Source of the DNA: Theristus sp. LFF4_11
Taxonomy: Eukaryota; Nematoda; Chromadorea; Monhysterida; Xyalidae
Length of the DNA: 64,000 nucleotides
NCBI GenBank assembly: GCA_030248135.1
Contig: JASANC010003362.1
Coordinates: 1-64,000 of the forward strand
Direction of reading: 5' to 3'
Shown: positions 26,801 to 47,761 of the stretch, in pieces
Layout: each line of letters starts with the position of its first letter
Position numbering within the stretch: the first letter of the stretch is position 1
Program-made: the position numbers and the translations under genes
Notes under the pieces: model-generated
What the model saw: the letters and a program-made list of their open reading frames with translations, nothing else
The model's database searches: none
Told to the model about the DNA's origin: nothing

Positions 26801-27683
26801 CCTGTGGTTGAATTCGTCAGCGGCGTCCGTGTGGCCATACGGCCGACGCGTCACGTGTTTCGTGTGCCCCGTTGTGACACGCTTCTGACGCGCGTGCAAA
26901 TCCCGCTACAGCTCGCCTGGGCAATGTCGATTCATAAGTCACAGGTGTTGACAATTGCAAGTGTTTCTACAGTCGAACTGTGAATCATAGGGAACCAGCT
27001 GATTGGTTGGTTGGTGATCACGTGCATGCATATGCTTTCCTGTGCAGAAATTGCCGTCGTGCGCAGTTTGGTTTGCACAGAAAGCTTGCATGCACGTGGA
27101 TTACGAACCAATCAGCGGATTCCCTATAATTTCGAGTTTTACAGTGTAGATTGTATTTAGACGATGATTTCCAAGCACTTTTCACACTGGTGTTGTGTCT
27201 CGACTGAGCCAAGTGTCAATTGGTGCAGGGCATGTCGCTTGACCTCGTCGAGGTGTCCGTGGCGGGCGTCTTCGAGGACGGCCAGGCGTATGTGGCGTTG
27301 TCGCGGGCGCGTTCGCTCGCGGGCCTGCGAGTACTCGATTTTACCCGTGCCTGCGTGCGCGCGAATCCAAACGTCGTTCGCTATTATCGGTTCGGTTTCG
27401 CTGTTTGCATTATTATGTTTGTCTTGTCAATCAATACCCATATTTATTTTGATCGCTTTCAAAAACCCGATTCCGTTTTGCCTTTTTATGCGAGAACCTC
27501 AACTGAGAGTTCATGATTTGCATCAGTGCCCATTGATTTTTATGTGTATCTCTTTTGTTTAGACGTCTTGACGAAGAGGACTGCTGCGGGGTGACACCGA
27601 CTTTGGCGCAACAAGAGAGACTGCAACAAGGCGATATTGGCTTCGTGAAACGGGCCGCTTCAATGCGCGCCATTAGGGCCTGA
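20821..27683 (+). CDS. PIF1: PIF1 5'-to-3' DNA helicase, 11 exons
   Basis: SF1B helicase that unwinds G-quadruplexes and restrains telomerase in nucleus and mitochondria. Proposed exons: 20821-21069, 22979-23429, 23775-23845, 23946-24141, 24788-24981, 25350-25478, 26010-26259, 26442-26624, 26796-26944, 27229-27389, 27563-27683 (2154 nt, 717 residues, frame kept). N-terminal PINT-like region: [10 protein letters not shown] in exon 1, [14 protein letters not shown] in exon 2. Helicase core: Walker [12 protein letters not shown], then [20 protein letters not shown], Walker [43 protein letters not shown], the late motif [10 protein letters not shown], and [11 protein letters not shown] with GLRVLDF. 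The start is the first ATG in frame upstream of the conserved block. A Helitron helicase also occurs in this window, but this gene has the full host PIF1 architecture. Intron 1 carries a hAT element; introns 4 and 9 carry CAGTCGA MITEs. Confidence 0.95.
21315..22815 (+). mobile_element. hAT transposon, 1501 bp, with perfect 8 bp target duplication, PIF1 intron 1
   Basis: The ends TAGGGATGGAGCCGG and CCGGATCCATCCCTA are inverted repeats. The identical 8-mer CCGCCGAC lies at 21307-21314 and 22816-22823. Just inside each end are tandem GGATTCCGG/GGATCCGG blocks (about 100 bp each side), which look like clustered transposase-binding sites. The interior carries the C-terminal part of a hAT transposase, so this is an internally deleted copy. 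The clean duplication suggests a recent insertion. Confidence 0.93.
21840..22569 (+). pseudogene. Truncated hAT transposase (C-terminal and dimerisation region)
   Basis: Coding remnants lie in more than one frame. An [10 protein letters not shown] block (around 22013) matches the hAT core motif with DPRFK. From 22111 a frame reads through an acidic linker to [20 protein letters not shown], then [17 protein letters not shown], ending near residue LDYPYAM. This last part is the hAT C-terminal dimerisation domain (W....YP.L...A...L..P.SS..SER.FS). The DDE catalytic core upstream is missing and the frame changes between 22100 and 22120, so it is not functional. Confidence 0.85.
24555..24726. mobile_element. 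CAGTCGA mariner-type MITE, PIF1 intron 4
   Basis: The left end CAGTCGAACTCTAAATTATA and the right end TATAATTTCTAGTTCGACTG are inverted repeats, with TA on each side. The arms contain CACGTGATGCATGCTTTCTG and its mirror, so the roughly 172 bp element folds almost completely. Related copies lie at 26970 and 52696, with a half copy at 16108. Confidence 0.88.
25253..25325 (+). mobile_element. SINE A, 3' fragment, PIF1 intron 5
   Basis: GATGGGCGCTCTACACTCGA through GTACGCTTCTCTGAGTTAGC and CCTGGCTGAAAACA matches the tail of the tRNA-derived SINE seen whole at 30757, 36455 and 52256. The tRNA-like head is missing. Confidence 0.65.
25835..25915. repeat. Dispersed repeat E, copy 1
   Basis: The block GCATTTCGGCCTGGCCAACA followed by GTGGTCTCATCAGTGGTG in PIF1 intron 6 recurs at 51883-51945 in an FCHO intron with the same order and orientation. 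Confidence 0.55.
26970..27145. mobile_element. CAGTCGA mariner-type MITE, PIF1 intron 9
   Basis: It starts CAGTCGAACTGTGAATCATA, only 25 bp after the donor of exon 9. Inverted arms carry GTGATCACGTGCATGCA and the mirrored GCATGCACGTG. The right terminus is degenerate (TTTTACAGTG). TA flanks the left end. Confidence 0.8.
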
Positions 27684-28315: not shown

Positions 28316-31300
28316 TCATGCAACCGCGCCCGCGCAGAATTCCGACAGTTCGTAGATGAGTTTTTCGGTCATCGAGACCGGCATCGACAGAACACCATGC
28401 AATGCGGTGGGATAATTCTTGTAGGTGGTTGGCACCCCAGACTGACGCAGCCGTTGGTGGTAGAAGTAGCCTGAAACGCTGCAGAATGCGACCAATTCAT
28501 GGCGGTGTGCCCCGCTGTTGCTGGTTAGGACACTTGTTTTCCTTTGTGTACTTGCCGGACACTTCTAATCAGTCTCGACTCTCGAGTTCAACAACAAACA
28601 AACAAAAATATTACAAAACTAACAAGATGACTAGTAAAATATCCTGAAATGCGCCTAGGCCAGTCGAAATCATGAAACTGTGCGATTGGGACTTTCAGTG
28701 ACCAATCAGCTTGCTCGATGTGTCAAGAAGCAACCAATCAGCTGCTTGCCTACGAGTGTGTGTGTGTAGCAAGACGCCTGCGCCGATACGAGCGGAGCAG
28801 TAGTGGTTACCCTCAAACTGGTGCGATTAAAAAGTGAAACGCCACTTGAGCGCGAAGTGCTCCGGCTTTAAGGATCCTCAGCCACCACCGCGGTACGGTC
28901 GCGCGGTTCTTGAAGCAACCTTCAACCGTAAACCGTTCAACCGTAAACTCGCACACCGTCGTCTCGTAGAATGTCGTAGCCGCAAGTGACGATCATCGTC
29001 CGCGGCGTCTGCTCCAGTCGCTCGCAGAACATCGGCGAAAAGTCTGGATCCGTCAAAAATGGCGCCAGTTTTTCAGCCAACTGAAACTTTTACGAAACCT
29101 GTCAAGGGGATTCAGCATTTTAATTGAAAAATGGCCACGCGATTCAGAAATCGTGTCGTGTGCGCCATCTTAATGCGTTACGGACAGAACGACGTCTGTG
29201 CGTACGCACAAAAAAACGAAATGGTGTTTTCGCTTTTAACACACTCATTTTCTCCTGTGAATATTTCAACCGCTCGCTACAGCAATTGGAATGGATCACC
29301 ATATAACATCCCCCTGGCATCAAAATTTGAACTGCAAAAACGACCAGCTAGCAGAACCAATCGGTGAACCGTATTGCATATGCATCCATAAAGTTGCATT
29401 GTAAATAATGAAGAATCAGTCAAACCGATTTGTGGACTTGATCGTCGTTGTACGACCTACTACGGTCGCAGCATTGTCGAAAATCTTTGAAAGAGTCCGG
29501 CAATAATGAGTAGTCGAGTCGCTGTCTGAAGATTTCATTTTCGCTTCGTAATTTCGGACAAACGTGGCGATTGCGACTGACAGATTTCAGTTCGTCAGCA
29601 GTTGGATTGAGGCCTAGAAAAGTTGCATGATGTGGTCTGTAATTTTGGTCCGGAGACTCAATGCGCACTAGATACAATGTAGGTGAACAGTTTTGTGAAT
29701 TCAAAATCGGCAAAGTGATACGAGCCCTCCAACATAAGACTGAGTCACTTTGGCGATTTTGAATTGGCACATAAAGATTGAAACTAGATTCCTTTCTAAG
29801 TCTGCATACGCACGCACTGAGTCGCAGAATAAAAAAATTGATAATACTAAAGAGAACGAAAACAAGAGGTCCATCTCAACAGAAAGCTAAACTGAGAAAA
29901 AAACGTGTAACGCAAACAGTGATATGCAAATTGGAGCATTCAAATCCGCAGGCACGCTAAAAAAAGATATCTGTGTCTCCATCTCATGATGGTCCAGCAA
30001 ACCAATCAACATTCAACTTTCTGGACAGATACAACAACAAGAAACCGATCACATATGGCTCCAACCAGTGTATGACATTGCCATCAAGACAGCACGATGT
30101 GGACTGAGGGCGCCAGACCCATTGAGCGACTCGTAGTAATGCTGGTAGGAAGGGGTGCAGAAGTCGACCATTTGCAGGTACGGGTAGATCAGCAATTGCG
30201 CCTGTGAACGAACGTTGGAACGCTTGAAATTATTGCTAACAACGGTTGTATCTATTTGAAAAAAAAATGTTTAATGTGGTGTTTATTGGAAACTCGAGAT
30301 GTGTAATTCCGTGCAGAGACGGAACTTACATAAGTCAACGAATAACATAACATTTTGTTCAGTGAGGCAAAAAGAATCGACTACTAAAGAGTCAACACTC
30401 TGTTGATCAAATAAGACTTTGGTGCGACCGAAAGATTCTGTGGTCAACAAAAGCTGCTGACCCTACTGTTACTGTTTTGCTTTTTTGCGATAAACCAACC
30501 GCAATTCTGGGCAGCTCCTGATTCTCGACTCTACTCAATCGGTTCACAATGGCAGCGGCGAGATTGCCGCCAGCGCTGTCGCCCATCACAATCGTTTTGG
30601 TCGCATCATAAGAGAAGAATGAATGTTGTGTTCGCAAATGACACTGCAGCACATGCCAGCAGTCAGTCAGCGCCGCTGGGTACGGGTGCTCGGGCGCGAG
30701 ACGGTAGCTGAAATAGAGCGGCAAGTTGTTGTTGTTGGCATTTTTAGGCGATGTTTTTAGCCAGGGCTAACCCAGAGAAGCGTACAGAACGCCATTGAGT
30801 AGGGCGCCCATCGAGTTTTCTCTGTCATTAAGTGCATATACACCCCTCGGCGGGGCTCGATCCCCCAAGCGCACATACTAGTCCAACGCACTACCACCAG
30901 GCCACGAGGGTGACATTGTGTGACAAACAAGGAGGTGCGATCAATTTGATCAATCAAATGCGATCAAATTGGCTTTGATTGAACCGATTTTGAGCGCAGA
31001 CGTTACTCGTATATCATGCAGATTGAATCGCATCTTCACAGCAAACCAGTCCATTTTTTATGTCGCATTACCGTCACAAAAAAAACGAATCCAGCAACTC
31101 TCAAAATTCCCATACTCGATGGAGATGACCGGCATGCGCGTGTGCTGTACGAGCCGGACAATCGGCTTATCGTAGTCCTCTGCTCCGAGCACGCAGAATC
31201 CACCGCCGTGAATGAAAATTATCGACGCTCTGTTTGTAAGTAGCTGTTCGTCGTCAGTGTTGGAGTTTGGAAAGGCAGTCTGTTCATGATGCGATTGTTT

Positions 31301-34300
31301 CGGCCGATCATGTTCAGTTGTTGTCGTCGGTGTGTACACACGAACGCGAACAACCGACGATGCGTGGTGTCTCGGCAGCGTCTCATTGCGCACGTGCACG
31401 CCTCGGGTGTCGCGAGCTCGAAAGAAGCCGAAGAAGCGAGCTGCTGCGAGCACCCGGCGACTCCAGCGGATCTGCGCGTGACCGCCGAAACCGAGCCGCT
31501 CGAGCACGATGTTCTGATGTGTTGATTGAGCGGCATGCATATTTTCGGAGGCATATTGATATTATCAATTGTTTAGGTTCTACGGACTGAATGCGTATGC
31601 AGACACGTTGGAAAGGAAACTGTGCCAATCTTTATGTGGCAATTGAAATCGCCTAAAGTGACCCTCGGCGACTCGGATCAATTTACCAATTTTGAGTCCC
31701 GTGTCATGCATGAAACTGTTTCGGGACCAAAGTAAAAGGTATCAAGTTGATGTGTGAAGACCGCAATGCTGTTGGTATGTCCGCCATCCGTGGCACTGAC
31801 GAGCTTCCAGGGCATTGTAAACAGTTTCGCAACTTTGCGCCAATAAACGTTTTTTTGCCAAACGCACCATGTTGTTTTTTTGCTACCAGTGATAGCGACA
31901 AGAAATAGGAGCGTTTGGCTGAGGTGTTTGGAAACGGTTTACAATGGCGGAGACATGTCCGTTGTACAGGGTGGGCCAAAAAAAAGGTTCCATTTTCAAA
32001 CTGCTGTCACTGGCTGGTGTTTTAATATTATGAGCTGAAATTTTCAGCACTGATAAAACATGCGTTGCCATTTTACTGACAAAATTTTTTTCCGATATAT
32101 AATTCCTAGCGCTCACTGTGGCAGATTTTCTAAAAAAAACTCGAAAAATTAACAAATCTACTATACTAAAAAAATACTTTGTCTGTCCGTCTGTCTGTCT
32201 GTCTGTCTGTCCGTCCAACTTTTTGCTATAAAATGCTTTGTTTTACTTCCATATTCTATTATTTGTACTTCTTTAGCTAATCAATCAAGAATAAGAAGAA
32301 ATCGAAGCCGTGTTTGTTCTATTTTATTGTCATCATCTCAATCTTAAAACAAATTTTCAATATTCTTCGCCATACAGTTTTCCTGCTTGCTGTGTTTTTT
32401 ATCAATTGTTTTTTACTGCTCACATTCTGCAACAAAAACAACGCCTCTGCATCATCAACGTTAAAATCACTGAAATCGTGCCGCTTCCACGCAGCGTCTG
32501 TGTCATCAATGAAGCGCAATCTCGAAACACCACAAGAATACAACACAAGGAAAAAGCGCGAAAAGCGTGCGAAAGTGAGAATAGACGAAACAAATGAAAA
32601 TCGTAATGATCGTTTGGAGTCTGAACGGTGAGATTACGATATAAAATTTTAATTTCAGCTAAATCCGCGTATAATATAATTTAATAATTCAATTTACAAA
32701 TGCAAAATCAAATAAAAACACCGAAATGCAATTTTCACTGACTTTCAGACAAGATCGCGTTCTTAGACGGCGCAAGAGAGACCAACAGGAGACAGATGAA
32801 GTTCGCGCAGAACGATTGGAACATGAGAAGTCTGTCGATTAAGATAGGCAGTGTTCAAAATTGACATACCAGTTATCTAAGAAATCATATACAACACATT
32901 TAAATTTAAAAACAAAACATTGGAATTCAGTTTTCACTGATTTTCAGGCAAGATCGTGTGGAATTCAGTTTTCACTGATTTTCAGGCAAGATCGTGCTAT
33001 AAGGCGGCGAGAGAGAGATCAAAAGGAAACAGATGAAGTTCGCGAAGAACGATTAGAAAATGAGCGGTCTGTCGATTAAGATAACCAGTGTTTAAAATTC
33101 ACATGTCACTTATCTTAGAAATCATAAACAACGCATTCAAATTTAAAAAAAAATAAAAATACTGAAATCCAGTTTTCACTGACTTTCAGGCAAGATCGTG
33201 CAATTAGGCGGCGAGAGAGAGATCAAGAGGAAACAGATGAAATTCGCGAAGAACGATTAGAAAATGAGCGGTCTGTCGATTAAGATAACCAGTGTTTAAA
33301 ATTCACATGTCACTTATCTTAGAAATCATAGACAACGCATTCAAATTTAAAAACAAATAAAAATACTGAAATCCAGTTTTCACTAATTTTCAGGCAAGAT
33401 CGTGCAATTAGGCGGCGAGAGAGAGATCAAGAGGAAACAGATGAAATTCGCGAAGAACGATTAGAAAATGAGCGGTCTGTCGATTAAGATAACCAGTGTT
33501 TAAAATTCACATGTCACTTATCTTAGAAATCATAAACAACGCATTCAAATTTAAAAAAAAATAAAAATACTGAAATCCAGTTTTCACTGATTTTCAGGCA
33601 AGATAGTGCTATAAGGCGGCGAGAGAGAGATCAAGAGGAAACAGATGAAGTTCGCGCAGAACGATTAGAAAATGAGCGGTCTGTCGATTAAGATAGCCAG
33701 TGTTTAAAATTCACATGTCACTTATCTTAGAAATCATAAACAACGCATTTAAATTTAAAAAAAAATAAAAATACTGAAATCCAGTTTTCACTGATTTTCA
33801 GGCAAGATAGTGCTATAAGGCGGCGAGAGAGAGATCAAGAGGAAACAGATGAAGTTCGCGCAGAACGATTAGAAAATGAGCGGTCTGTCGATTAAGATAG
33901 CCAGTGTTTAAAATTCATATGTCACTTATCTAAGAAATCAAAGACAACGCATTCAAATTATAAAACAAATAAAAGAAATCATAGACGACTCATTCAAATT
34001 TAAAAACAAATAAAAATACTGAAATTCAGTTTTTACTGATTTTCAGGCAAGATCGTGCTGTAAGGCGGCGAGAGAGAGATCATGAGGAAACAGATGAAGT
34101 TCGCGAAGAACGTTTAGAAAATGAGCGGTCTGTCGATTAAGATAACTAATGTTTAAAATTCACATGTCACTTACCGTATTACCCCCATTAAACCCCCCAC
34201 CATTAATCCCCCCCAACCAATAAACCCCCCCCCCCGACAAGTTTCCGAATAATCCCCCGCCCCCCACAAATAATCCCCCATGGGGGTTAATTGGAAACCT

Positions 34301-37300
34301 GTTTGAAACACATACCCAGCGAATTCAGTGGCAGAATGCAGTGACATGGTGAAATTGTGCTACCAAAAGCCCCAAAGGGATGAGTTAATGGTAATTTCAT
34401 TACAAAAGGCTGTTACAAAAGAAAATCTCTGTGAAAAGTAGAAGTTTCTGCGACTTTGTTGCCTGCCATGCAAGGTATTTTTGCCATTTTTTAAAAAACC
34501 CCCACCCATAGAATTTGTTTGTAAATAAACCCCCCCTACCAATAATCCCCCCCCAACCAATAAACCCCCACCCCTAAAAGTCGCTGATGTATTAATCCCC
34601 CATAGGGGTTTATTGGGGGTAATACGGTATCTAAGAAATCAAAGTCAATTTTCTGCAGTATTATGAATACCTGCATAGTCTTTTCCGATGGCCTTAAAAA
34701 ATGCCACATTTTTTGTTTGGCAAAACATCTGATTTAAATTTCACAGACTATTTTTTACGATGAATTTGTTTTAAAAAAGAAAACAACGGCTGCTGCAACA
34801 TAACATAAATTATTAAAAATTTTAATTTCAGCTAAATTCGCGTAGAATATAATTTACGCTTCTGGAATATATTTTTTATCCAAATTGCATTATTCATAAA
34901 GCTTTCAAAACATCCAGGCATCGAACGTCTGAACGTAGAGGGCATTTGGCGGAGAATGAAACTCCAGCAGATCGCGAACAACGGTTGCTGCAACAAAGGT
35001 TTTCAGCAAAATTAGAATTGTTATTTCACTAAAAACCACGCATTTGATGTTTTAAAAATTTGTAGAACAAGCTTGCCTACGAAAGAGCGGCATTTGGTTG
35101 GGATCGCACGACAACCAATAAATCCATCATCGAAACCGTTCGTTGATGAAGAAAAAATGGACAAAAAGTGCCACCACTGTAGCGCGTTGCACTGGGATTG
35201 GGAGAAAGGCCGCGGACACAACTACAGTCCGTGCTGCAACAACGGAAAAATCAGATTGCCGCCGTGGCCTGAAACTCCGATCGTACTTCAAGAGCTCCTC
35301 ATGTCCGACACAAAACGCGCGAAGCAGTTCCGCACAAACATCAGAGGTTACAATCAAGTCTTGGCGTTCACGTCAATTGGGGCTTCAATCAACGCTGATA
35401 TTGCCAATAATCGTGGACCTTTTACATTCAGGTAAACTGCAAACCTAAGAATCTATGTAAACATTTCATTAATACAAGCAATTGAAAACAATCGGAACTA
35501 TATATCCAGACTTCAAGGCGAGATTAAGCATCGCATTGGTTCAATCGCGATGCCAGCCAGTGGTACGCGTCCAAAATTTGCCGAAATGTACGTGTACGAC
35601 ACCGCTAACGAGCTGCAAAACCGAATGAACGCGCTGCCAAATTTGGACGAAGGAACGCTGCAAACATTACAGGACATGTTGCACGTTGTGAACCCATACG
35701 TGCAAATGTTCGAGCAAGCAGGAAAAGCAATTGCTCTTAATCCAACCGAAAATTTTGCAATCGTCATCAAAACAGATGTTGCCGGACTTGACAGTCGGCG
35801 CTACAACCAACCATCAGGAGAAGAAGTTGCAGCAATAATGATAGGCGATGGCACTGATGAATTCTCAGGACAAGACATCGTTTTGCGAACGACGCATGGG
35901 CAATTGCAACGTATCAGTGAATCCTCACCTGTTTTCGAACCGCTCCATTACGTCTTGCTCATGCCTTACGGCACATCCGGTTGGACGTATACTTTGGTCG
36001 GTCAAGATGGAAAGAAGATTACGCCGATGGACTACGCGAAATTTAAGCTGGCTATCCGTGACAGTCCGTTAAAAATTCTTTTAATGCTGATTCTCCATTT
36101 ATACACGAAAGCTTCATCTCTATCTCAGGTCAATGCCCGATGCCACACCGCGGTGGCCGACTTTTCCTGCAGTACATGGTGGATCTGTTTGTGCGCATGG
36201 AACACGAGCGACTTCAATGGGTGCGTCATCATCAGAGCGAAATTCGCGCTGAGCAGTACAAGGGATTGTCAGACGCGGTGACGGCAAACGACACAACAAT
36301 GGCGTCTAATGTCGGTCGGCGTGTTGTACTACCTGCGACTTTCACTGGCAGTCCGCGACATATGTACCAGATGTATCAGGTTAAAAAGTTATGGTTCAAC
36401 TGTCATTGTATTCTTATTGCCTTCAGAATTAATAGCTATGAACAAACGAACGGTGATTTAAGCCATGTTTTAAGCCAGGACTAACCCAGAAAAGCGTGCA
36501 GAACGCAGTAGAGTAAGGCGTTCATCGAGTTTTTACTGGGTCATTAAAAGCCTAATCACCCTCGGCAAGGCTCAATCCCCAGAAGGCACAGGCAAAAGTC
36601 CAGCACTCAAGCCACGAGGGTGACTTGAAAATATTTGCTTTTAGGATGCCATGGCTGTGGTTCGCGTGTACGGTAAACCGGATCTGTTTATTACGATGAC
36701 GTGCAACCCCCAATGGCCTGAGATCACGCAGGCACTTTTGCCTGGACAAACGTCTTCCGACCGGCCAGACATTGTCTGTCGTGTCTTCAATCATAAACTT
36801 CGCCAAGTGCTCCATGAAATTCGAGATGTTGGCATATTCGCACAACGCCACGAGACTCGATACGCTATTCGACCCAAAGCAATTGTGCACGTTGTGGAGT
36901 TTCAGAAGCGAGGTGTCTTTGACTTCAAACATGCATGTAATTTAATATCAAACCATGTTGACATCTTTACCATTAGGCTTGCCTCACGCGCACATTCTGG
37001 CCATTTTGCATGACGACGACAAATTGCGATCGCCGGATCAATACGACCAAATTGTTTCTGCAGAACTTCCGCAACAGGCTAGCAACTATAACAAACAATC
37101 CAAATATGGCTATTATGATTGAAATTTTTGAATTTCTAAAATTTGATTTGTTATTTTTACAGTTCTACATCGACAACAAAGGTGATCAGGAAGAATCTGC
37201 CCTGTACAAAACCGTTGTTACGTGTATGATGCACGGGCCATGTGGCACAGCCAACATGAGTGCGCCATGCATGTCCGACAGTTGTTGTACGAAGCGCTAC

Positions 37301-40300
37301 CCACGTGATTTCTGCGACAGCACAGCAGAAAATTCCAATGGATACCCAATATACAGGTTAAATTTGACTGCTCAATTTCATAACAATTTTCAAAATCATA
37401 GCCGTCTAAACTTTTAATTTTTGAATTATAGACGCCGCGATGATGAGCGCACTGTGACCATCCGTGGTATTCCACTTGACAACCGCTGGGTTGTGCCGTA
37501 CAACCCGTACCTCTCACAGAAATACAACTGTCACATAAACGTTGAAGTGTGCACATCCGTTACATCCGTAAAATATTTGTACAAATATGTTTACAAGGGT
37601 GCAGACAGGGCGGTGGTGGCCATCAGCAAACAGCACAGCACCGGCAGCGACAATCACGATCAGCCGGCTGACACAGACGAAATATCACGATACGTTGACA
37701 GCCGTTACGTCTCGACATCAGAAGCGTGTTGGCGTATTAATGGATTCGCAACACATAGTCAACAACCGAATACTGTCAGATTGCAGGTTACCACAACAAT
37801 AAAAAATTGATTAATGCAAACATCAAACAGCTGAAACGGGTAAAAAGCTAAAAGCAGGTCCATCTGCCAAGCGAGCAGACTGTCCAATTTCATGAAGACG
37901 ACGACCTGCGTGAAGTCGTACGAAAAGGTCCGCCTGGAACGACGCTAACGGCCTGGATGGATTTCAACTGTCAGAGCAACAAATATCACAACCTTTACTA
38001 CCACGAATTCGTCAAGGCAACTGTTTTTCCATCAAAACAAAAAACATTTATTATCATATACATTGTTTATAAAATATAAAATAACGTTTCAGTAATTTTT
38101 TCCAGGTAGCTGTATGGAACCGATCAAGTTTTAAATGGACAGAGCGAAAGCGTTTCGCAACCGAAACGGTCGGACGTATGTACTTCGTGCAACCGACTGA
38201 AGGTGAAAGATACTACCTGCGTCTGATGCTGCACAATATCCCAGGCGCAAAGTCATACGAAAACTTGAGAACGGTCAACGGCACAGTGTATGAATCGTTC
38301 CGCGAAGCCGCGAACGCAATGGGCCTGCTGGAAGATAACAGAGGTTCACAACGGTCGCATTTTTTCATCAGCCGTTTAATAAGCCGCTGAATTTTTTATG
38401 AAACGCAGTGCGAAAATATTTTTTAAGAGTGGGCACAGTGCTTAGAGGAAGCAGCTGCAATGCACAGTGGCCGTCAGCTGCGCTCTCTGTTCGCCACAAT
38501 CCTAATTTTCTGCCAACCAACCGCACCAGAATCACTTTTTGAGCGGTTTCTACCCAATCTTTGCGACGACCTGCTCCAACGGAGATCACAAAAAAATCGA
38601 CCAGGTGGATAATTTCTAACTGCATAAACAAACAAACCAAAAAACTAAATCAAAAACCTCAGAAGAGATCAACGAGCGCCTGATCAACGAAACGCTGCGT
38701 GACATAGCAAACAATTTGGAGGTGCATGGCAAAGCCTTGGCTGATTTTCCGAACATGCCCACACCATCCAACCAAGACATCACAACCGATGAGGACGACG
38801 CATTATTATACGCGATTGATATGGCAAGCTTGCCCGCAAGAATTGAAAACCTGACAAATGAACAGAAAAACGTGTTCAACGAAATAATGTCAGCAATTCA
38901 TGACAAAAATGGGCGAGCATTTTTTATCGATGCACCCGGAGGCACAGGTAAAAAAATTATTTTAATTCAAAATGAAATATGCACGTATGTACAGAACACT
39001 TAAAAAAAACTGTGAGGACCTTAACGCAGGAAAGTCGCACACCATCAACACAATCATCGACAATGCACGCTTCAACAACTACAACGTGATTGCTGTCGCA
39101 TCGTCCGGAATTGCAGCCTTGATCCTTCACGGCGGACGAACGGCACATTCACAATTCAAGATTCCGATTGCCAACTTAAATGAAACATCCACACTTTTTG
39201 TCCCAAAGCAGTCACAGTTGGCCAAGAGGCTGCAAAATGCTCATCTTATTGTCTGGGATGAAATCAGCATGGCGAACAAATACCAACTCGATTGTGTTGA
39301 TCGATCTTTGCGTGATCTGTGCGGCAGTGATCAACTGTTCGGTGGAAAAGTTTGTTTAAAAGAAACTTAGTGCTCAACAAAAAATTACAAAGGGAAAAAA
39401 CGCAAAATTTCATTAAAGGTGGTCCTGTTTGCTGGCGATTTCAGACAGGTCCTACCTGTCGTCCGCAACGGCAATCGCGCAAGAATTGTTTCGGTAACAG
39501 CAAAAAGATGGACAAACTGGGATAAAGTTAATCATTCTTCTGTATTAATTCTTCGATTGTGTTATTAAATAATGTCTCTTAACTTCCACAGTTTTCAAAA
39601 AATAGGTCAAGACTCTCCGATTGACGATGAACATGCGAATAGCATCGGCCACTCAGAACCACGAAGAGTCAGAGAAGTTTGGCAACTGGCTCCTGCGTAT
39701 CGGTGAAGGACGAGAGCCCACAACAACAGACAGCGTCCAGCACGATTTGATACAGCTGCCGCAAATTATGTTGCTACCATCGGTCAATAAACTCATGAAT
39801 GAAGTGTTTCCAGATCTCAAAAATGAGTGCCATTTGACATCAAGGGCAATTCTAACGTCGAAAAATGCTGATGCTGACAAAATGAACTACGCCATCATGT
39901 CACGAATGGAGGGAGACAAGAAACTGTTCAGATCAGTTGACACAGTCGACAACGACGGTCAAAATGCCCTTTTCCCAACAGAATATCTAAACACACTGAC
40001 ACCAAGCGGCATGCCGCCACATGAGTTGTGCCTTAAGATCGGAACGCCCATCATTTTGCTACGGAATTTAAATTCAAAGGAAGGACTTTGCAACGGCACC
40101 CGACTGATCTGCAGGCAATCAAATAGACACTTTAAAAATATGGTTTCAAAGATTTTTTTTATTTAAAAATTTTTAGATTTAAAAATTATTATTTTTTTAA
40201 CAAAACAAAAATACAGGGCATTCGGAGGGCGAGTGATTGACGCAGAGATCATCAGCGGTGTTCAAAAGGGACGGCGTGTGTTTATTCCTAGAATCACGTT

Positions 40301-43300
40301 GACCCCATCTGACAGTCCGCTGCCGTTTGCATTGAAAAGGAGACAATTTCCGGTAAAAACAGATAAAAAATCAAAATCAGCAATAGGACATCGCAATTAA
40401 ACGCAAAAGGTTAACAAAAATCTAAACGTCAGGTGCGCATATGTTTCGCGATGACAATAAACAAAGCTCAAAGTCAGACGCTGAAGATGGTGGGCATCTA
40501 CCTTCCACAGTCTGTGTTCACTCACGGTCAACTGTATGTCGCATGCTCGCGCGTCGGAAACCCAAATTCAATCAAAATTTTTGTCGAAAACAAAAACAAA
40601 CCAGATGCTGATAAAACAACAACGCGAAATATCGTATACAAGGAAATATTGTGAATTCGAAAAATAATCGTGTTGTTCTCAGGACCAAGTTAATCAAAAT
40701 GGCGTTTTTGTTTTGCACAATTCCATTGTTCACGTACATTTCTTTATGTCCCAGTTACATATGTTTAAAATCAACCAAACGTGGCCAATTGCTATTTCTA
40801 ATGAATTCATACCGAAAAAGAAGCTACAAGAATTGTTTTTCAAAATTTAAAACCAGAAAGAAGTTGAAATTCAAATATTCACGCAGTTCGTGCAGTTAGG
40901 GTATAGATTCACAACCATAAACACAACAACTTAATTTTTGCTAACCAAAAACGGCCTTTTTTCTTCTGAAAAACAATGCAGAAGCTCCAATATTTACCTT
41001 AGGAAAGTCTAATGAATCAGCAATCAATAAGTGCACGGATTGTGCATCAACATCCATAAGTTCGGGAACATGTGCATAAACAAGAACATTAATTTTCTGC
41101 GTGTTTGACAAGCTAAAAATTCTATCCCTGATTTTACACAGTCAATGAATGCCATAGTAGCAAAAAAGTTGTGTGATTGTAAGTGAAAAAAAGCACGTTG
41201 CTTGACAAAAGTTCAAATAAAAGCAAATGAAACCAAAAAAACCGACACCACAAAAAAACGTGAAATATGTTTAAACAAGGATACAAATACAAGGAACGAT
41301 TATAGCCAAACGGTAACGTTTACCGTAGTACGGTTCAAAGCATATTTTCACAACGTACACGTACACGTATAATTTTAATTACGTTACACTACGTACACGT
41401 ACACCAACTCACAAAAGACACGTAAACAAATTTGGAAATAAAACGAAAAAACAGATCCGTTTTCAACTCATTACAACATCTGTCTGCTCGCAAAAACTTT
41501 TAAAGCAGAAAAAAATAAAAAAAGAGAAATCAAGTCATCATCTTGGAATGGCTGAGATTGCAGTGGACGCGGCAGCTGAGAATCAGCAACAAGCACAAGA
41601 GCTGCTGACAATTAGTCAACTGCAACGAAGCTCGACAAAGTAAAGTGACCATTGTATTTCTAATTGAACAAGTATCATTGTATACTTAAAAAAAGATTTG
41701 TATTTACGGATTTGAACACACCTAAAAACTCAGCTGGGAATTGCGAGGCAGAGTAATTGAGCAAGGCAACGTGCACGAGTTCACGCGTCCAAACGGCACG
41801 GGGAAGGTGTTCTCAATTGAAATTGCCGACGCAACAGGCGAAATCAGAGTGACAGCGTTCACAGAGCATGTTGAGTCATTACGCGCAGTTCTGGCCGCAA
41901 ACACACTCATCAGTTTGAGGTGATTATTTAAAAAATTTAATGAATTATGAATTTAAAAATTAAAAAAATTAAGAAAAAACATGACATTCAAGCAACTGCA
42001 CTGTGCGCGACGCGAACAAGATCTATTCGTCATTGACGAACGGCCTGGAACTGACGCTGAATGACAGCTGCACAGTAAATTAATTTAGTGTTGAATAAAT
42101 GACACAAATGGAACATTTTGAAAAACAAAAAACAAAAACAAAGGTACTTTTAGATAAGTGAGTGCAGCGATGAAATTGACCATGTCCCTGAGAAGGTGTA
42201 CAATTTTGCGCAATTTCCAAACCTGCCAAAGATGGTTGGACAAACCGTCGGTAAGAAACTACTGTGAAAATAAAACATTACAAACGAACACTAAATTATT
42301 GTAAATTATTAGTTGGTAAACACACGCATGATGATTGTTTAGCATCACGTAATCACAAGCCAATCAGCTTCAACTCCAAATTTACATATTATTATAATTG
42401 CAAATATATTCTGAAATACGAAAAGCAGACGTTATCGGCCAGTTGATCGACGTCAAACACGGCACGGTGAAAAACAAACAAACGACAACAATGAAGCTCA
42501 AGGACCAACATGATCAGCTGATAAACTGCATTCAGTGGGAAAAGACGGTAACAAACTATTATATCTAGATATTTATAAACGAACATGCACAAAGAGTGAA
42601 AACGAAAAATGAAAATGAAAACGGCCTAGCGGCTACAAAAAAACGACAAATTATTGCAAAAAGTGGAAAAAAAACCAATCAAAGTCCTTCTCACAAAACA
42701 TAACAAATAGAATTTATGTTCTCACGATGTTCAGGCACGAAATAAAGTTCACCATTTCAAAAAATGAAAATGAACTTTATTTAACTTTTATAAACCAGGA
42801 CTTGGATGCGAGCAAAACGACGAAAGTGGCAATAAAGGCTGCAAAAGTGAACATGTTCAACAACAGTGAGTATGTACAATAAAAAAGAAAAAAACGATAA
42901 AAATTGACAAAATTAAAAGATTGTGATTAAATTGTAGTGGTGCAGCTGTCCGGCGGAACAATTGAGAAGAATCCAGACATCAACATTGACGGACAGTTGT
43001 GTGCGGATGAGGACGGCACCAAGTACCGAATCTATCACAATCAGTACGAAGAGGTGAAAATGTGTTTGGGCCTGTGTTTCAGTTGCAAAAGACGGAAACA
43101 TAAAAAAACGCGTACATATTCAAAAACTAAAAATCATCAATCATTTATTGTGTACAAAACTCAGAATGTCAAGGCAGAGCCGAAGGTGACGACCAAACGA
43201 GCCGCCGACACGCTGAACAACAGCAACAAAATCACGGAGTTTATCAACACGCTTGAAAAGAAGATGCGCAAAATGAACAATAAAGAAGCGCAGAACATGA

Positions 43301-45915
43301 TCGACAAGATCAAAATTTCGTTGTTTGATGCAGAATAATTTTATTCAGTACGATACTGATCTGTGTTTTTTTTTACCAAAAAATATTTGAATTACATGAT
43401 GTTTTTTATTTAAATCAATGCGAATGATTTTAAATGATTTTAAAGCTTTATGTTCAAAAAAAGAGAAAAACATACACCGTGCCACAGGCACGGGTCAACG
43501 GCTAGTCTATAATACTAAAATAATACTTTGTCTGTCCGTCTGTCTGTCTGTCCAACTTTTTGCTATTTAAGGTAACGAAATCAAAATGTTGCTGTCACTT
43601 TTTAACAATTTTTCTATGCGAATCATTTTCTTTTGGTTTTCAACAACGAGTCATCATGATTCATTCAGTTCTTTCCTCAACGTTGGTTGGTTGGTAGTTG
43701 GTGGTGATGTAAATAGATGAGATTATAATGTGCGGGAACGAACTGCTCTAACGAAGCCATTATCTCACAGAATGGACGGCACATCCGATTATGATCGATA
43801 GCAAAAATTGGATAAACGGGTCTCCCGATAAAACGAATTTGCGACTTTTTGAAAACCCGACAAAAACGAAATTGGCTTTTGAATTTTTTTTCACACAAAA
43901 GTGAATAATAATTGAATCCCATATTTGTTTCTAAACTAAATACACGGGTAACGTTGATGCGGCACATTCTATCAAAGCAAAATGAAACAGGTAATTAGAG
44001 CACTAAACAAAAGCAGTTTTACAAGATTTTAACTAAAATTCTGTGACTTTCAAAAAGCAAAATTGTGAATACAAATTTTTGTGCAAAAGCGGGTTTACTG
44101 TTATCTTTCTTATTAAACGTGACCCAATATGCGTTTGCACGCTCAGATAGAGAAAATGTTTCATGGCTGCGCGGCAATTTAAAATCAGCAAAACTTAACG
44201 TATTCTGACGGCAGATTTGTGCAAGAAATTGAGAAAAAATTAGAATTTTATCTCACTAAATAAATTTACTTTATTTCGTATTTGAATTACGTTCAGGCGC
44301 GATACATTTTTTCAGCTGTGCGGCTTTTCCACACATCATTCAACATTACTCGGCCTCCTTCGCACGAAAAGATAATACAAAAAACACAAATGGGATTGTG
44401 CAAATGAACGGGTATCGATTCCGGCCAGTTCTGTACAATAAAAATAAACGGGCCTCTTTGGGTCAAACTTAGCGACTTTGAACAATGAAATTGTTAAACA
44501 ATCAAGTCACGTTTGAACAATTTCAGTCAACCAGAAAAAATCTAACGGGAACGAAATGCCTTTAACAGGTATATCTCAACGATTGCAAAATCAGCAAAAC
44601 AGAGTTATAAAAAATCATTTTTGACATTAACTGACACTGTTTGAATTGACACCGAATCGAAAAGCTTGAAAACAAACATTTGAAACGTTTGAAAAGCACT
44701 TTTAAAAATCGAGCGGGTACTCGAGATAAAAATAATTGCGGAATGCTTGCCTCAAACAATAAACGGTATCAACGAATTTAAACGCATGAAAGCTTTGGTT
44801 AAAAAAATCAACACGTTTCCAGTTCCAGGAAAGCAGAAGCAAAGAAATGTCAATTGGGTGCACCTTGCTGTTAACAAAATCGCAAAAATTTCTTACCCGG
44901 GCCGTAGGCACGGGTCAACTGCTAGTTGACTAAAATGAGTGCAAGAAAAAATTAGTATCAAGATGCGTGATTCAATTTTGAAACTGTTGCGAAAGTGACA
45001 AATTGGTCTTTTTGGATACCCGCGATAGTTCAAATCATGCGCTCAGAGTGGAAAGGTCTCACACTTGAATTGCATTTGAGCACCTCGAGCGAAATTCTGA
45101 TGTTTCACAACGGACTCGAGTCAGCAGCCATGCGACTGCGACAGAAAGAATTGTTAAGTTGATTTTTTGTTTTCTGTGTTGCTCTGTCTGTTAATTTGTT
45201 TCTTTTGAAAAGTTTTTCTGCGGTTTGAATAAAAACAGTGTTTCAGTTTCAGTTTTCTGCAGTTTCGTCATGGTTAAGTGGACAGCAGAACAACGGGTCT
45301 GGTGTGCTATCTGGTGGGAGCAATCTGAAAGTTTTTCTGCAGTGACTCGCCAGTTTCGCGTAAAATTCCATCCAGCCGCTGCCGGACGACAAACCTTGAT
45401 GATGATTTGGATGTCTATGAGCAATGATTCGTTGTTAAATTCTTGGTTAAAAATCCGTTTTTTTGAAAATTTGGGAATTTTTAAACATTGTGCTGTAAAA
45501 CTGAATCTACTTGACCAAACTGGATAAAAATTTTGTCAGAAAAATGGCATCACATGTTTTATCAATGCTGAAAATTTCAGCTCATAATATTGAAATACCA
45601 GCCAGTGACAGCAGTTTGAAAATGGAACCTTTTTTTTTGGCCCACCCTGTACATATTGTACCTGGCAAAACCTCAAAACAGCCAACTTTGCGCGATGCAA
45701 CAATACAGCGTATGGCCTTTTGTCTTCTAGGCGGGGGTGCAAATGGCATCATACTCGTGCAACACATTTCTTACCGGCCATTCATCGACGAATCGAATAC
45801 CAGTGGCAATCGCCTGCATCACCGCATAGTCGGACACGTCCGATGGCAGGGCGACGTGCACGAAGTGGAAATAAATGCAAATGAACACAATGATGACGAA
45901 CAGTACTGCGGCCAT
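28316..45915 (-). CDS. Arylacetamide deacetylase / neutral cholesterol ester hydrolase-like esterase, 7 exons
   Basis: Membrane-anchored alpha/beta hydrolase of the hormone-sensitive-lipase group, which hydrolyses lipid or xenobiotic esters at the ER. Minus-strand exons in order: 45775-45915, 31116-31513, 30500-30707, 30066-30201, 29438-29613, 28957-29080, 28316-28470 (1338 nt, 445 residues, frame kept). The N-terminus MAAVLFVIIVFICIYFHF is a single membrane anchor. Next come the oxyanion motif IIFIHGGGFC, DYRLAPEHPYPAAL formed across a splice, the nucleophile motif VMGDSAGGNLAAAI, LLIYPYLQMVDFCTPSY, the acid region YDILRDDG and the histidine in TALHGVL. Exon 1 was placed by matching the N-terminal pattern and the phase-0 donor CCG/GTAAGA. 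Intron 1 is about 14.3 kb because of a mariner and two Helitrons. The exact family member (AADAC or NCEH1) cannot be fixed. Confidence 0.9.
29140..29260. repeat. Dispersed repeat J, copy 2
   Basis: It carries AAATCGTGTCGTGTGCGCCA and CGAAATGGTGTTTTCGCTTT, matching 17370-17520. It lies in the intron between the 29438 and 28957 exons of the esterase. Confidence 0.5.
29640..29800. repeat. Dispersed palindromic repeat D, copy 1 (esterase intron 4)
   Basis: It contains GAGACTCAATGCGC, CACTTTGGCGATTTTGAATT and GACTGAGTCGCAGAA-type ends found in all D copies (31570, 51220, 53098, 54290, 55935, 57705). The unit is about 170-200 bp, A/T-rich in the middle, with imperfectly inverted termini (T/CTGCGACTCAATGCG). 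Confidence 0.6.
30757..30926 (-). mobile_element. tRNA-derived SINE A, copy 1 (esterase intron 2)
   Basis: On the minus strand the head reads GTGGCCTGGTGGTAGTGCG (A-box-like) and, about 35 bp on, GGGGGATCGAGCCCCGCC (B-box-like). It continues to a tRNA-unrelated body with AGAGAAAACTCGATGGGCGC and the tail CTTCTCTGGGTTAGCCCTGG. Other copies lie at 36455 (inside the Helitron) and 52256 (FCHO intron), with a fragment at 25253. Three copies share the same head-to-tail layout, which supports a single SINE family transcribed from an internal pol III promoter. Confidence 0.82.
31570..31735. repeat. Dispersed palindromic repeat D, copy 2
   Basis: GGTTCTACGGACTGAATGCG, ATGTGGCAATTGAAATCGCC and GTGTCATGCATGAAACTG match the consensus blocks of D. 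It lies in esterase intron 1, about 60 bp upstream of exon 2. Confidence 0.65.
32509..40654 (+). CDS. Helitron RepHel: HUH replication initiator fused to PIF1-type helicase
   Basis: Rolling-circle transposase. Exons: 32509-32627, eight 81 nt exons (32749-32829, 32986-33066, 33190-33270, 33394-33474, 33598-33678, 33802-33882, 34047-34127, 34918-34998), then 35066-35431, 35510-36057, 36129-36379, 36645-36912, 36977-37077, 37163-37356, 37432-37786, 37858-38010, 38106-38343, 38428-38604, 38663-38947, 39030-39349, 39419-39526, 39606-40114, 40217-40352, 40433-40654. Total 4998 nt, 1665 residues. Order: charged repeats; zinc-finger-like CHHCSALHW and CCNNGKIRLPPWP; FRTNIRGYNQVLAFTS; HRIGSIAMPASG; Rep motif YGKPDLFITMTCNP; HUH motif LPHAHILAIL; two-tyrosine region KYLYKYVYKG; GERYYLRLMLHN; helicase APGGTG/KS (split by an intron), IVWDEISM, AGDFRQVLPVV, LRLTMNMR, LCNGTRLI, TINKAQSQTL, GQLYVACSRV. 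Two introns seem to use GC donors. Confidence 0.92.
32749..34127 (+). repeat. Tandem array of units of about 200 bp, each carrying an 81 nt exon
   Basis: Seven copies at 32749, 32986, 33190, 33394, 33598, 33802 and 34047, mostly 204 bp apart. Each has an acceptor preceded by TTTTCACTGATTTTCAG, then an exon of exactly 81 nt and a GTCTGT donor. Each encodes 27 residues beginning QDRAIRRRERD and ending REERLENER. All exons start with one base of a codon and end with two, so any number can be joined without changing frame. An eighth 81 nt exon (34918-34998) with diverged sequence (HRTSERRGHLAENE..) follows. A partial 38 bp duplication at 32948-32985 gives copy 2 a duplicated acceptor. Confidence 0.92.
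34172..34629. mobile_element. MITE with TACCGTATTACC ends, copy 2, inside the Helitron
   Basis: It has the same termini and C/G-run layout as 16571-17027 but in inverse orientation. It interrupts the spacer after the seventh 81 nt exon. Sister repeat units read CACTTATCTTAG at the same place, here split as CACT/TA..TA/TCTAAG, which shows a TA target duplication and an empty-site control within the same element. It lies in an intron of RepHel. Confidence 0.9.
36455..36628 (-). mobile_element. tRNA-derived SINE A, copy 2, in a RepHel intron
   Basis: It carries the same blocks as the copy at 30757 but more diverged (AGCCAGGACTAACCCAGAAA, CACTCAAGCCACGAGGGTGA). It is inserted in the RepHel intron between 36379 and 36645 and leaves the next acceptor (GCTTTTAG/GAT) about 17 bp away untouched. 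Confidence 0.75.
40655..41547. other. Spacer between RepHel and RPA-like gene
   Basis: A/T-rich, non-coding. It contains CGTACACGTACACG repeats at about 41355-41405 and probably holds the RepHel 3' end and a promoter for the RPA-like gene. Confidence 0.5.
41548..43338 (+). CDS. Helitron-encoded replication protein A large-subunit-like protein (OB folds)
   Basis: Single-stranded DNA-binding protein resembling RPA70 DBD-A and DBD-B. Exons: 41548-41639, 41734-41919, 41993-42074, 42154-42250, 42429-42547, 42799-42865, 42938-43053, 43165-43338 (933 nt, 310 residues, frame kept). The first OB fold shows WELRGRVIEQ, GKVFSIEIADATGEIRVTAF and LTNGLELTLNDSC; it is followed by FAQFPNLPKMVGQTV and DVIGQLIDVKHG, the start of the second OB fold. 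The C-terminus is a lysine-rich helix (FINTLEKKMRKMNNKEAQNM). RPA-like genes are known passengers in several plant and animal Helitrons. Here it lies downstream of RepHel in the same orientation and probably coats the displaced strand. Confidence 0.9.
43477..43505 (+). terminator. Helitron 3' hairpin and CTAG terminus
   Basis: A perfect 7 bp stem CCGTGCC/GGCACGG with loop ACA (43477-43493), then GTCAACGG and CTAG. In Helitrons this hairpin acts as the rolling-circle termination signal. Confidence 0.9.
43506..44925 (+). mobile_element. Non-autonomous Helitron, 1.42 kb, head-to-tail with the large one
   Basis: It begins TCTATAATACTAAAATAATA immediately after the CTAG of the first Helitron, with the same GTCTGTCC start region. 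It ends ACGGGTCAACTGCTAG, preceded by an imperfect hairpin around CCCGGGCC/GGCACGGG. The termini match the 11 kb element, but the interior has no Rep, helicase or RPA sequence. It is probably mobilised by the large element's proteins. Confidence 0.88.
45271..45420 (+). pseudogene. N-terminal fragment of a mariner-type transposase (DUF4817-like helix-turn-helix)
   Basis: MVKWTAEQRVWCAIWWEQSE followed by SFSAVTRQFRVKFHP resembles the DNA-binding domain that starts many mariner-like ORFs (an aromatic-rich helix, then R.F...F). It ends after about 50 codons with no DDD catalytic domain. A sister sequence at 59698-59838 shares MVKWTAE, WW and VRQF. Confidence 0.65.
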
Positions 45916-47761
45916 TTGTTGTGTTGATCGCGTGAAAATGGGGGATTTAATAGGGTTTTTTTGGATATTATTTATTATTAGTTCGTTTTTAATAGAATCT
46001 AATAGAATAATCTAATAAATTTTTAATAGAATAGAAATCTGGAGGCCAAGAATAAACTAGAACTGCGCACCTCGTAAGCGCTGACAACTGAAACGAGCAC
46101 GCAGATTATTTCTTGAAAAGGAATAAAGTAAACTGAAAAAAAGGAAAACAGGGTTTGGAAAACGAGCAGCAATGTGCCAGCCAGACACAATTACCACAGC
46201 AGCTGTGCTGCACGTTCAACAACACACTTTTTTTGCGGTGGGGAGCCAATGTTACTGGCGCAAAAACAAATTTGAGTGAACGTTCGTGTCCAAGTAGAGA
46301 CGGGAACAAGAAAAAACACATCACCAGACGTTTTTGCCACTGCTGCCGAGCTAATTTTTTATCAATACAATCGTGAGTGTGCACACTTTTTCACAAACAG
46401 CACACATACAGAGAACATAATCATGCTAAAAGTCTGCGGTCTCACTGAAAACCATGCGCTGCGCACACAGCACACATACGCGCGTATATGGCGAATAAAT
46501 AAAGTGCAGCGGTCTTTTTTGTTGCTCATGATTCTGTGCGCACACGCACACGCACGGGCAAGGTCAGTCAGGGAATGCATAAACGTAAATTATACATTTT
46601 GCACTGTATGCTGCACAACCAGGCATTGCCGAAGGGCACCTGGAAAGTTTGTGGCACCGCAATGCATTCCAATTTGGGTTCACTTTTTTGTTTGCATGGT
46701 GAACTGGCCGGTGTGCTATCATGCGCTTGAGTGTTTTCTTTCACTTGTGTGCGTGCGCAGCAGATTTTGGGATCAGAAAGAAACCACTGATGACTTTATG
46801 CACACAGATATATTACATTATAACGGACTGTGACAGTGGCAATACAAATTGCATTCTTGCGTACAAACAAATTTTAAACTTGAAAAATTCTGAAAACTTA
46901 CACTTTACATTAACTTTCACAAATAGGTGTACACTCGAATGTATCACAGACTTGAAAAAATTACGTACAATTATAAGACCGTATGTCGGATTGTGCAGAG
47001 AATGAGTGTGAAACAAAAACAGCGAAGTTGTGAACGTTTCAATTTCAAAAAATTCTTCAATCCTAAAAAAAGCACTGCACAAACACTGCGCAGGGTTCCT
47101 GTCGGTTCTATTTGTTGCAGGGACACTCTGCATGTGCAATACATGATACATTGAAACAAAATGAAAAAACGAAAACAACACGATACAATTAAAAACAACA
47201 ACAAAACGTTACAATTGGAAGCACGTTTTTCCTGTGGAGCGCGCTTGTCTGTGGCACAGAAAAGGTTGAACCGCTGAATGGTAAGGGAATAAAAAAATAA
47301 ACCACGTAGAGAGAGAGATTGTCACAAAATAAATAAAAGAACTCTAAAATGGAATAACACAAGTAACATAAAAATCACCCAGTTATCCAGACAATGAATG
47401 CCATAGTGTTTGCAAAATCTGATAGTAAAAGAACTTTTGATAAAATACAAAATCTTGAAAAACCAATCTGTTTTGCACAATTGCACGACAAATCTTCACG
47501 CAACCATTATTTACAACAAGTTGAACTTTACAAAAGTCACAAGGTTACAACGAACGATGCTTGACCGAGCTGAAGAACGGAAAGTTGAAAACGTTTTTTT
47601 GAACAGCAATCACCAGAACCCAGAACCAGATGTCCAAACCTACAAACAGCAAACGAAGCCGAAAAAACACAACCAGCCAGAGGAGAACCCCGAAAAGCTC
47701 TCATCCTAAAACCCCAATCACAACAAGCAGAGCGACAAGATTGCAACTGCTGCGATAACCG
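45916..47761. other. Intergenic region, esterase 5' side and FCHO 3' side
   Basis: Both neighbours are on the minus strand. It must contain the esterase promoter (just right of 45915) and the FCHO 3' UTR (left of 47762). I recognise no further gene; frames here are short and unlike known families. Confidence 0.5.

Follow-up and report, generated by a model that had tools for sequence, protein, structure and literature searches.

In Helraiser, a Helitron of bats, removal of the N-terminal 489 amino acids leads to a loss of single-stranded DNA binding, and this DNA-binding part also has a zinc-finger-like motif, according to passages of PMC4778049. A second described system is STPR, a DNA-binding tandem repeat of 23 residues. 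Parts of PMC4821344 describe the repeat as basic (pI 11.4) and as requiring a salt bridge between E4 and R9, and a title cited there gives its range as C. elegans to humans. Arrays of exons have been described in host genes: passages of PMC3236188 report tandem duplicated exons within the single gene Dscam, and passages of PMC10526429 report exons of 3-81 bp in schistosome micro-exon genes (MEGs). Among the matches listed in open-licence PMC, none concerned exon duplication in a Helitron and none linked STPR to the N-terminus of the Helitron transposase, RepHel. The locus described here, in a 64,000-nucleotide stretch of DNA from the nematode Theristus sp. LFF4_11 (the window), bears on both subjects.

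The window Helitron and its RepHel gene

A Helitron is expected to have a 5' TC, a 3' hairpin followed by CTRR, and an A/T insertion site without target duplication. The predicted element is complete and occupies 32157..44925 on the plus strand. Its 5' end, TCTACTATACTAA, is flanked by A (A|TCTACTATAC at 32157), and its 3' end, a hairpin with CTAG|T, closes at 44925. The 5' motif was read directly in the sequence, and a similar form is present at the 5' side of three other elements discussed below. The 3' end was the sole candidate in a 3'-end scan covering 40600-52000. A MITE-like insertion without assigned strand (34174..34627; inverted ends CCGTATTACCCCC and GGGGGTAATACGG, TA on both sides) lies within the element. 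Further downstream, a plus-strand exon of a second gene (41735..41920) resembles an RPA-like OB-fold (PF01336, E=9e-5), with a score of 22.8 bits that is under the Pfam cut-off of 27. An Rfam search of the window gave no match, and the nematode SL1 leader was not found with at most one mismatch allowed. The genome itself yielded 84 cuticle-collagen matches, compared with 0 in 14 control genomes that are seemingly prokaryotes; the cuticle-collagen family is not known outside nematodes.

The RepHel gene lies on the plus strand. Exon 1 (32509..32627, 119 nt) ends in phase 2 and already carries one copy (ETNENRNDRL) of the motif E[TS]xxxRxxRL. After the repeat exons come three exons within 35066..36379 (35066-35431, 35510-36063 and 36129-36379) with a CxxC...CC motif and the lead-in to Helitron_like_N. 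The last exons (36645..40654) encode Rep, with the HUH motif PHAHI and the tyrosines of YKYVYKG, and a fused downstream helicase with GGTGKS. Helitron_like_N (PF14214) matched with E 4.7e-54, and Helraiser (PDB 7lcc) aligned over query residues 169-1677 with E 1.9e-289. The model requires GC donors at three introns, and its donor at 36913 was picked to agree with the Helraiser alignment. With eight repeat exons joined, it encodes 1669 aa with no internal stop. A first-pass annotation of this DNA had proposed the same unbroken frame at 4998 nt; the present model keeps the frame and sums to 5010 nt including the stop.

Symmetric repeat exons in four Helitrons

The same annotation had described seven 81-nt units with their own splice sites, mostly 204 bp apart, followed by a diverged eighth exon at 34918, all sharing one phase. 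This description was confirmed. The plus-strand exons, each of 81 nt, are W1 (32749..32829, the most diverged of the seven), W2 (32986..33066), W3 (33190..33270), W4 (33394..33474, identical to W3), W5 (33598..33678), W6 (33802..33882, identical to W5), W7 (34047..34127) and the diverged last exon W8 (34918..34998). Each has a CAG acceptor and a GT donor, each is entered and left in phase 2, and the joined frame has no stop. In other words, the exons are symmetric, and any subset of them can be joined without loss of frame. Start-to-start steps are 237, 204, 204, 204, 204, 245 and 871, so that four of seven are exactly 204; the 237 step holds a 38-bp tandem duplication (32921-32996), the 245 step holds a 41-bp duplication (33932-34015), and the 871 step includes the 454-bp MITE-like insertion, located in the intron preceding W8. 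A decoy acceptor 38 nt upstream of W2 would lead to a stop if used. W3 and W5 differ at 5/81 exon sites and 5/150 intron sites.

Four RepHel loci were found in the genome, with 8 repeat exons in the window, 2 in C699 (exons labelled A), 3 in C2896 (C) and 9 in C2519 (B). A noisy inverted copy of the C2896 element (C2896:10000-12282), taken for an assembly artefact, was excluded from all counts. Units measure 296 bp in C699, 282 bp in C2896 and mostly 670 bp in C2519. Despite these different sizes, all 22 internal repeat exons are 81 nt long, in phase 2 and stop-free, with an AG acceptor and a GT donor, and in every one of them E[TS]xxxRxxRL begins at residue 15. Three more Helitrons thus support the claim made for the window, that a symmetric coding exon has multiplied in tandem. 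The first-pass annotation had also named what would speak against it, namely units with stops or without splice sites, and the 22 exons include no such unit.

In-frame stops occur within 60 codons upstream of all 22 units and within 35 codons downstream of 21; none was present in the 54 codons read after B8. With stops on both sides, the units do not form a single uninterrupted reading frame. A single long ORF with 68-aa repeats is ruled out in the window by a stop 4 codons past each of W1-W7. When the genome was searched with concatenated repeats, 21 of the 22 exons were listed and nothing else scored below E 0.4. At the DNA level, searches with the arrays of the window and C2896, and with a C2519 query of which 196 bp fell within the repeat unit and most of the rest came from the sequence before the array, matched only their own contigs.

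Are the repeats maintained as coding sequence? Between elements, ungapped exons are on average 46-56% identical, compared with 26-36% for flanks of 57-60 bases. In gapped comparisons, matches between introns are limited to stretches of 11-23 nt, the best with E 0.001; exon matches reach 1.8e-7 for C699 and the window but only 0.001-0.05 for distant pairs. Within C2896, exons differ by 9-11% and introns by 29-50%, an intron figure that is inflated by unalignable ends. Across 18 unit pairs, dN/dS was 0.14-0.39 in 11, 0.62 for A1/A2, saturated in two and 0.24-1.06 in four young window pairs. Most older units are therefore well below 1, as expected for an amplified coding exon: W1 against W2, W3, W5 and W7 gave 0.16-0.20, and the C2896 pairs gave 0.14-0.36. 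Fisher tests of three chosen pairs, uncorrected, gave p values of 0.006 (W1/W2), 0.014 (C1/C2) and 0.043 (W8/A2). The low dN/dS of most older units, together with the motif in all 22, show at the sequence level that single repeats are constrained. For some pairs, constraint appears weak or absent (A1/A2 at 0.62, W5/W7 at 1.06).

In a clustering of all 22 rows (14 distinct), the amplified exons grouped by element, W1-7 with values of 95/95, C1-3 with 90/90 and B1-8 with 97/92; the last exons W8, A2 and B9 did not form one group. In three or more lineages, the arrays thus appear to have undergone separate growth or separate homogenisation. Besides independent growth, concerted evolution of one old array would also produce clustering by element.

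Origin and possible role of the array

We consider it probable that the RepHel N-terminus consists of tandem 27-residue STPR-like repeats, each encoded by one symmetric 81-nt phase-2 exon, and that it has grown by exon duplication. Duplication in tandem of an exon and its intron, arising from unequal exchange or from replication slippage, would add or remove whole repeats without shifting the frame. In three or more of the four Helitrons, this would have happened separately, or an older array would have been homogenised separately. The 81-nt exons would be joined in the mRNA and would form a flexible arm that becomes helical once on DNA; such an arm may help RepHel to hold DNA or enter the nucleus, by analogy with STPR in FMBP-1. 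What the DNA itself shows is the set of exons, the frame they keep, their presence in all four elements and constraint on most older copies.

The STPR likeness centers on a short motif. E and R stand five residues apart, the E4-R9 spacing, in all 22 repeats, and the period is 27 residues in all 22 rather than 23. Against PF21107 (STPRs, cut-off 27 bits), the full and abridged window arrays, C699 and C2896 gave no match, and the abridged C2519 array gave a weak 8.5 bits, below the cut-off. Outside the 10-residue motif the likeness is at chance level (182/500 permutations), and the hhalign score is partly circular because the registers were set by the motif. Among related Helitrons, the arrays of P0054 (E 9e-13) and P0019 (E 4.5e-10) score as PF21107 above its cut-off. 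Of 81 N-termini, 11 contain the strict motif, where shuffles expect 0.09, and 3 of the 11 have more than one copy; a looser regex, which allows [TSED] as the second residue, was broadened once P0019 had been seen, and the 11/81 count rests on the strict form. P0002, P0019, P0047 and P0054 all carry the motif at the RepHel N-terminus in 23-residue steps. A 27-mer profile run against 123 sequences, namely the N-terminus of Helraiser plus 122 homologues, produced only three single matches above 5 bits (P0047, P0015 and P0006), and the regex is the more telling of the two. The window repeat thus resembles STPR without being a proven STPR. The window array holds 75 K/R and 85 D/E in residues 1-256, and this net negative charge, unlike that of the basic STPR, counts against an STPR-like arm. 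The first-pass annotation had guessed at a flexible or DNA-binding arm; the motif lends some support to a DNA-binding arm, which stays a proposal. A single alpha-helix of the ER/K type was rejected, as opposite charges at i,i+4 number 19 against a mean of 26 in shuffled sequences and thus show no enrichment. Three joined repeats, compared with solved structures, gave one match, at chance level (E 0.79).

Does repeat number matter? Possibly, though we hold this only tentatively, these Helitrons have a DNA-binding arm that can evolve in length through the copy number of its exons; recombination, perhaps also splicing, would retune the number of STPR-like repeats, and selection on transposition would have raised it repeatedly. 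If true, a transposon shapes the protein with which it handles DNA through modular exon dosage. An equally tentative alternative is that the exons are real but neutral passengers, a symmetric exon being harmless, its duplication tolerated and the repeat number without effect. The spread from 2 to 9 exons among elements agrees with this, as does the near-identity of C2519 units (zero differences for B1/B4, B2/B5 and B3/B6), which unequal exchange would give without selection. This three-unit repeat, within C2519:28700-35300, may be real or may stem from the assembly. Constraint on single repeats and the recurrence of STPR-type arrays among other Helitrons weigh against it, although neither implies that their number is important.

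Rather unlikely is the idea that the array serves as an alternative-splicing cassette, in which one-repeat exons would give each gene arms of many lengths, as in schistosome MEGs, whose exons are similarly short. Any subset would preserve the frame, and, judged by eye, the donors of the window (gtctgt, gttttc) seem weaker than the majority of those in C2896 and C2519 (gtaagt, gtgtgt, gtatgt, gtacgt). However, the strong-looking donors of those two elements suggest constitutive joining there.

It is improbable that the array is a plain intronic minisatellite with only an exon-like appearance. Helitrons often hold tandem repeats, and passages of PMC7492417 report them in Helentrons; the array has an even period, and between some young units exon and intron have diverged to a similar degree. 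However, a satellite would show no coding constraint between units, whereas synonymous change is in excess in most older ones. This faster synonymous change and the constancy of length, phase and splice sites alongside introns that share very little between elements argue against a satellite, and the flanking stops and the C2896 exon-intron difference, inflated as it is, add to its rejection.

Capture of a host STPR gene followed by amplification is very unlikely: Helitrons capture gene fragments (passages of PMC4778049) and the reported range of STPR would allow it, but the genome has no STPR above the curated cut-off (best 19 bits against 27; an exon-split gene could escape), and the N-terminal motif in other Helitrons points to an old RepHel feature.

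The probable reading, growth by exon duplication, would provide a case of a transposase growing in this way in several elements of one genome, and would tie a portion of the N-terminus of RepHel to STPR, a DNA-binding repeat already described. It offers a testable system for relating repeat number to DNA binding and transposition.

Comparison with known systems

Like the array, STPR (PF21107; FMBP-1, ZNF821) is built of short tandem repeats in which R stands five residues after E; in the array, RL follows. Unlike STPR, the repeats described here have a period of 27 instead of 23, fall below the Pfam cut-off, are slightly acidic in the window and are encoded by one exon each. Closer in context are P0002, P0019, P0047 and P0054, which share the protein, the N-terminal place and the motif. 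These are predicted proteins with a 23-residue period and no visible introns, whereas the window has an exon per repeat. The repeat as such is not unique, since 23-residue versions occur in uninterrupted proteins of related Helitrons. Helraiser has an alignable RepHel and an N-terminal part needed to bind single-stranded DNA, but its N-terminus fits the array only loosely, and the PMC4778049 passages describe no exon array. Dscam shares tandem duplicated exons within one gene, and schistosome MEGs share short exons; both are host genes rather than a transposase, and Dscam exons are mutually exclusive.

An array of 81-nt exons in a RepHel gene

The first-pass annotation described an array of 81-nt exons at 32749..34998 in a Helitron RepHel gene, and this array is real. 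It consists of seven exons of 81 nt (W1-W7, starting at 32749, 32986, 33190, 33394, 33598, 33802, and 34047), followed by an eighth of the same length that has diverged (W8, starting at 34918). All eight are entered in phase 2. The spacing, described as mostly 204 bp, also holds, with start-to-start steps of 237, 204 (four times), 245, and 871 bp. A 38-bp perfect tandem duplication (32921-32996) lies within one irregular step, and a 41-bp duplication (33932-34015) lies within another. The 38-bp duplication places a decoy acceptor and 11 nt of exon ahead of W2. Splicing at this first acceptor would lead to a stop, so W2 must either use the second acceptor or be skipped. The array's last intron carries a MITE-like insertion (34174-34627) with C-rich/G-rich inverted ends, bordered by TA on either side; a G-rich stretch at 16624-17012 may be related to it. 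Intron 1 (32643-32683) and the intron before W8 (34816-34856) share a 41-bp stretch (39/41 identical) with no reported counterpart in the array units. This stretch may mark an older exon-plus-intron duplication.

The joined gene model shows no frameshift, as had been claimed, and comprises 5010 nt including the stop, or 1669 aa with zero internal stops. A 777-residue part of the protein matches Helitron_like_N, the whole protein aligns with Helraiser (PDB 7lcc; query residues 169-1677), and the HUH, tyrosine, and Walker A motifs are present. The Helitron ends are found at 32157 and 44925, flanked by A and T. In this gene model three introns need GC donors (37078, 38017, and 40115), a share that looks high. 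Elsewhere in the window, judging by eye, the ORF at 30407-31561 (-) looks like an esterase/lipase, that at 22087-22569 (+) like a hAT dimerisation region, and that at 26225-26983 (+) like a PIF1-like C-terminus.

Recurrence of the exon in other elements

The genome searched was the assembly that contains the window, 159 Mb in 3744 contigs. Col_cuticle_N (cuticle collagen), a family not known outside nematodes, had 84 matches in it and none in 14 control genomes, seemingly prokaryotes. A protein search located RepHel at no fewer than four loci, namely the window and contigs C699, C2519, and C2896. Upstream exons of the same kind were present in C699 (two, A1-A2), C2896 (three, C1-C3), and C2519 (nine, B1-B9). 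A genome search with concatenated repeats recovered 21 of the 22 exons, missing the first C699 exon, and gave no further place below an E of 0.4. Stops or missing splice sites, which the earlier annotation would have taken as signs of a plain intronic satellite, were not found in any of the 22 exons of the four elements. Each is exactly 81 nt long, stop-free, and in phase 2, has an AG acceptor and a GT donor, and carries the motif E[TS]xxxRxxRL beginning at residue 15. A single long ORF spanning the units is ruled out, because an in-frame stop occurs within 60 codons upstream in all 22 units and within 35 codons past the exon end in 21 (B8 has none in the 54 codons read). Thus, the units are separate exons.

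At 28.9-33.7 kb of C2519 (L024), exons B1-B8 follow one another in steps of 669-670 bp, and the B1-B7 units are nearly identical. C2896 (L025) holds at its contig end (10000-12282) an inverted copy of the same element, riddled with deletions, that looks like uncorrected long-read sequence. The 5' motif lies 4 bases (C2519) or 3 bases (C2896) past a CTAG that resembles another Helitron's 3' end, with a hairpin seen by eye only at C2896. This suggests that both elements inserted beside an older Helitron.

Constraint and origin of the units

Most older copies are under constraint. Among the 18 exon pairs for which dN/dS was computed, the values were 0.16-0.20 for W1 versus W2, W3, W5, and W7, 0.14-0.36 for the three C2896 pairs, 0.29 for B8/B9, 0.62 for A1/A2, and 0.31-0.39 for W8 pairs of finite dS. 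Two of the 18 pairs were saturated. Fisher tests on rounded counts from three chosen pairs gave uncorrected p values of 0.006, 0.014, and 0.043. In C2896, exons diverged by 9-11% and introns by 29-50%, the latter figure being inflated by unalignable ends. Four young window pairs gave dN/dS values of 0.24, 0.24, 0.37, and 1.06. W3 and W5 differ at 5/81 exon sites and 5/150 intron sites, and thus exon constraint is not seen in the youngest units. This fits a recent origin and is compatible with neutrality too.

In a tree of 14 distinct exon sequences, the amplified exons cluster by element (W1-W7 95/95, C1-C3 90/90, B1-B8 97/92), and B9 is sister to B1-B8 (98/99). W8, A2, and B9 form no single group; therefore, the tree points to no particular exons as ancestral. 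Unit steps are mostly 204 bp (window), 282 bp (C2896), and 670 bp (C2519). Compared without gaps, the 57-60 bases flanking the exons show only 26-36% identity from one element to another. In gapped comparison, introns of different elements share at best 11-23-nt pieces (lowest E 0.001), and exon matches reach 1.8e-7 for C699/window and 0.001-0.05 for more distant pairs, whose likeness is carried by the protein motif. The arrays are most simply read as having grown independently, although a single old array evolving in concert would likewise produce clustering by element and may be the case. The C2519 units repeat as a three-unit block (B1/B4, B2/B5, and B3/B6 show no difference), as expected from unequal exchange; an assembly artefact is possible. 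Tandem exon-plus-intron duplication, with repeats separately grown or homogenised in at least three lineages, is in our judgment the probable explanation. The duplications would arise most simply by unequal exchange or replication slippage, and nothing in the analysed sequences ties them to rolling-circle transposition.

Likeness to STPR and other known repeats

According to PMC4821344, STPR binds DNA as a 23-residue repeat arranged in tandem in FMBP-1; it is flexible by itself and rich in helix on DNA, aids nuclear localisation, and depends on a salt bridge that links residue 4 to residue 9 within each repeat. At least 122 Helitron relatives were sampled (2 from one search and 120 listed of 3410 from another), and N-termini were tested in the 81 whose sequence extends 40 residues or more ahead of the CxxC...CC motif. 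The strict motif occurred in 11 of these 81 listed relatives (shuffles expect 0.09), more than once in 3; a looser expression found 12, 4 of them with more than one copy. One relative, P0019, has ten copies at exact 23-residue steps, and both P0019 (E 4.5e-10) and P0054 (E 9e-13) pass the Pfam STPR model PF21107.

The E and R of the 81-nt-exon motif are likewise five apart, but the period is 27 rather than 23. Furthermore, the window array did not match PF21107, an abridged C2519 array reached 8.5 bits where the cut-off is 27, columns outside the motif were no closer to STPR-type repeats than chance (182/500), and the window array is slightly acidic, all of which counts against membership. The repeat is therefore named STPR-like, not STPR. 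From the sequences, the four extra residues appear to sit in the linker between motifs, where the splice junction falls.

The exons are predicted to be joined in the mRNA, and our best guess is that the array would act as a DNA-binding arm whose binding strength is set by repeat number. In PMC4778049, removal of the N-terminal 489 residues of Helraiser abolished ssDNA binding, and these residues also contain a zinc-finger-like motif. Among the open-licence PMC matches listed (titles, abstract starts, and term counts), no paper concerned exon duplication in a Helitron; likewise, none of those listed concerned STPR in Helitrons. Among the ranked papers, the FMBP-1 paper alone combined two of the terms for the repeat and the element, although counting 'Helitron' as a whole word misses 'Helitrons'. 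The known neighbours are the STPR repeats themselves, other RepHel proteins that contain repeats, and host genes with tandem exon arrays; the new part is their combination.
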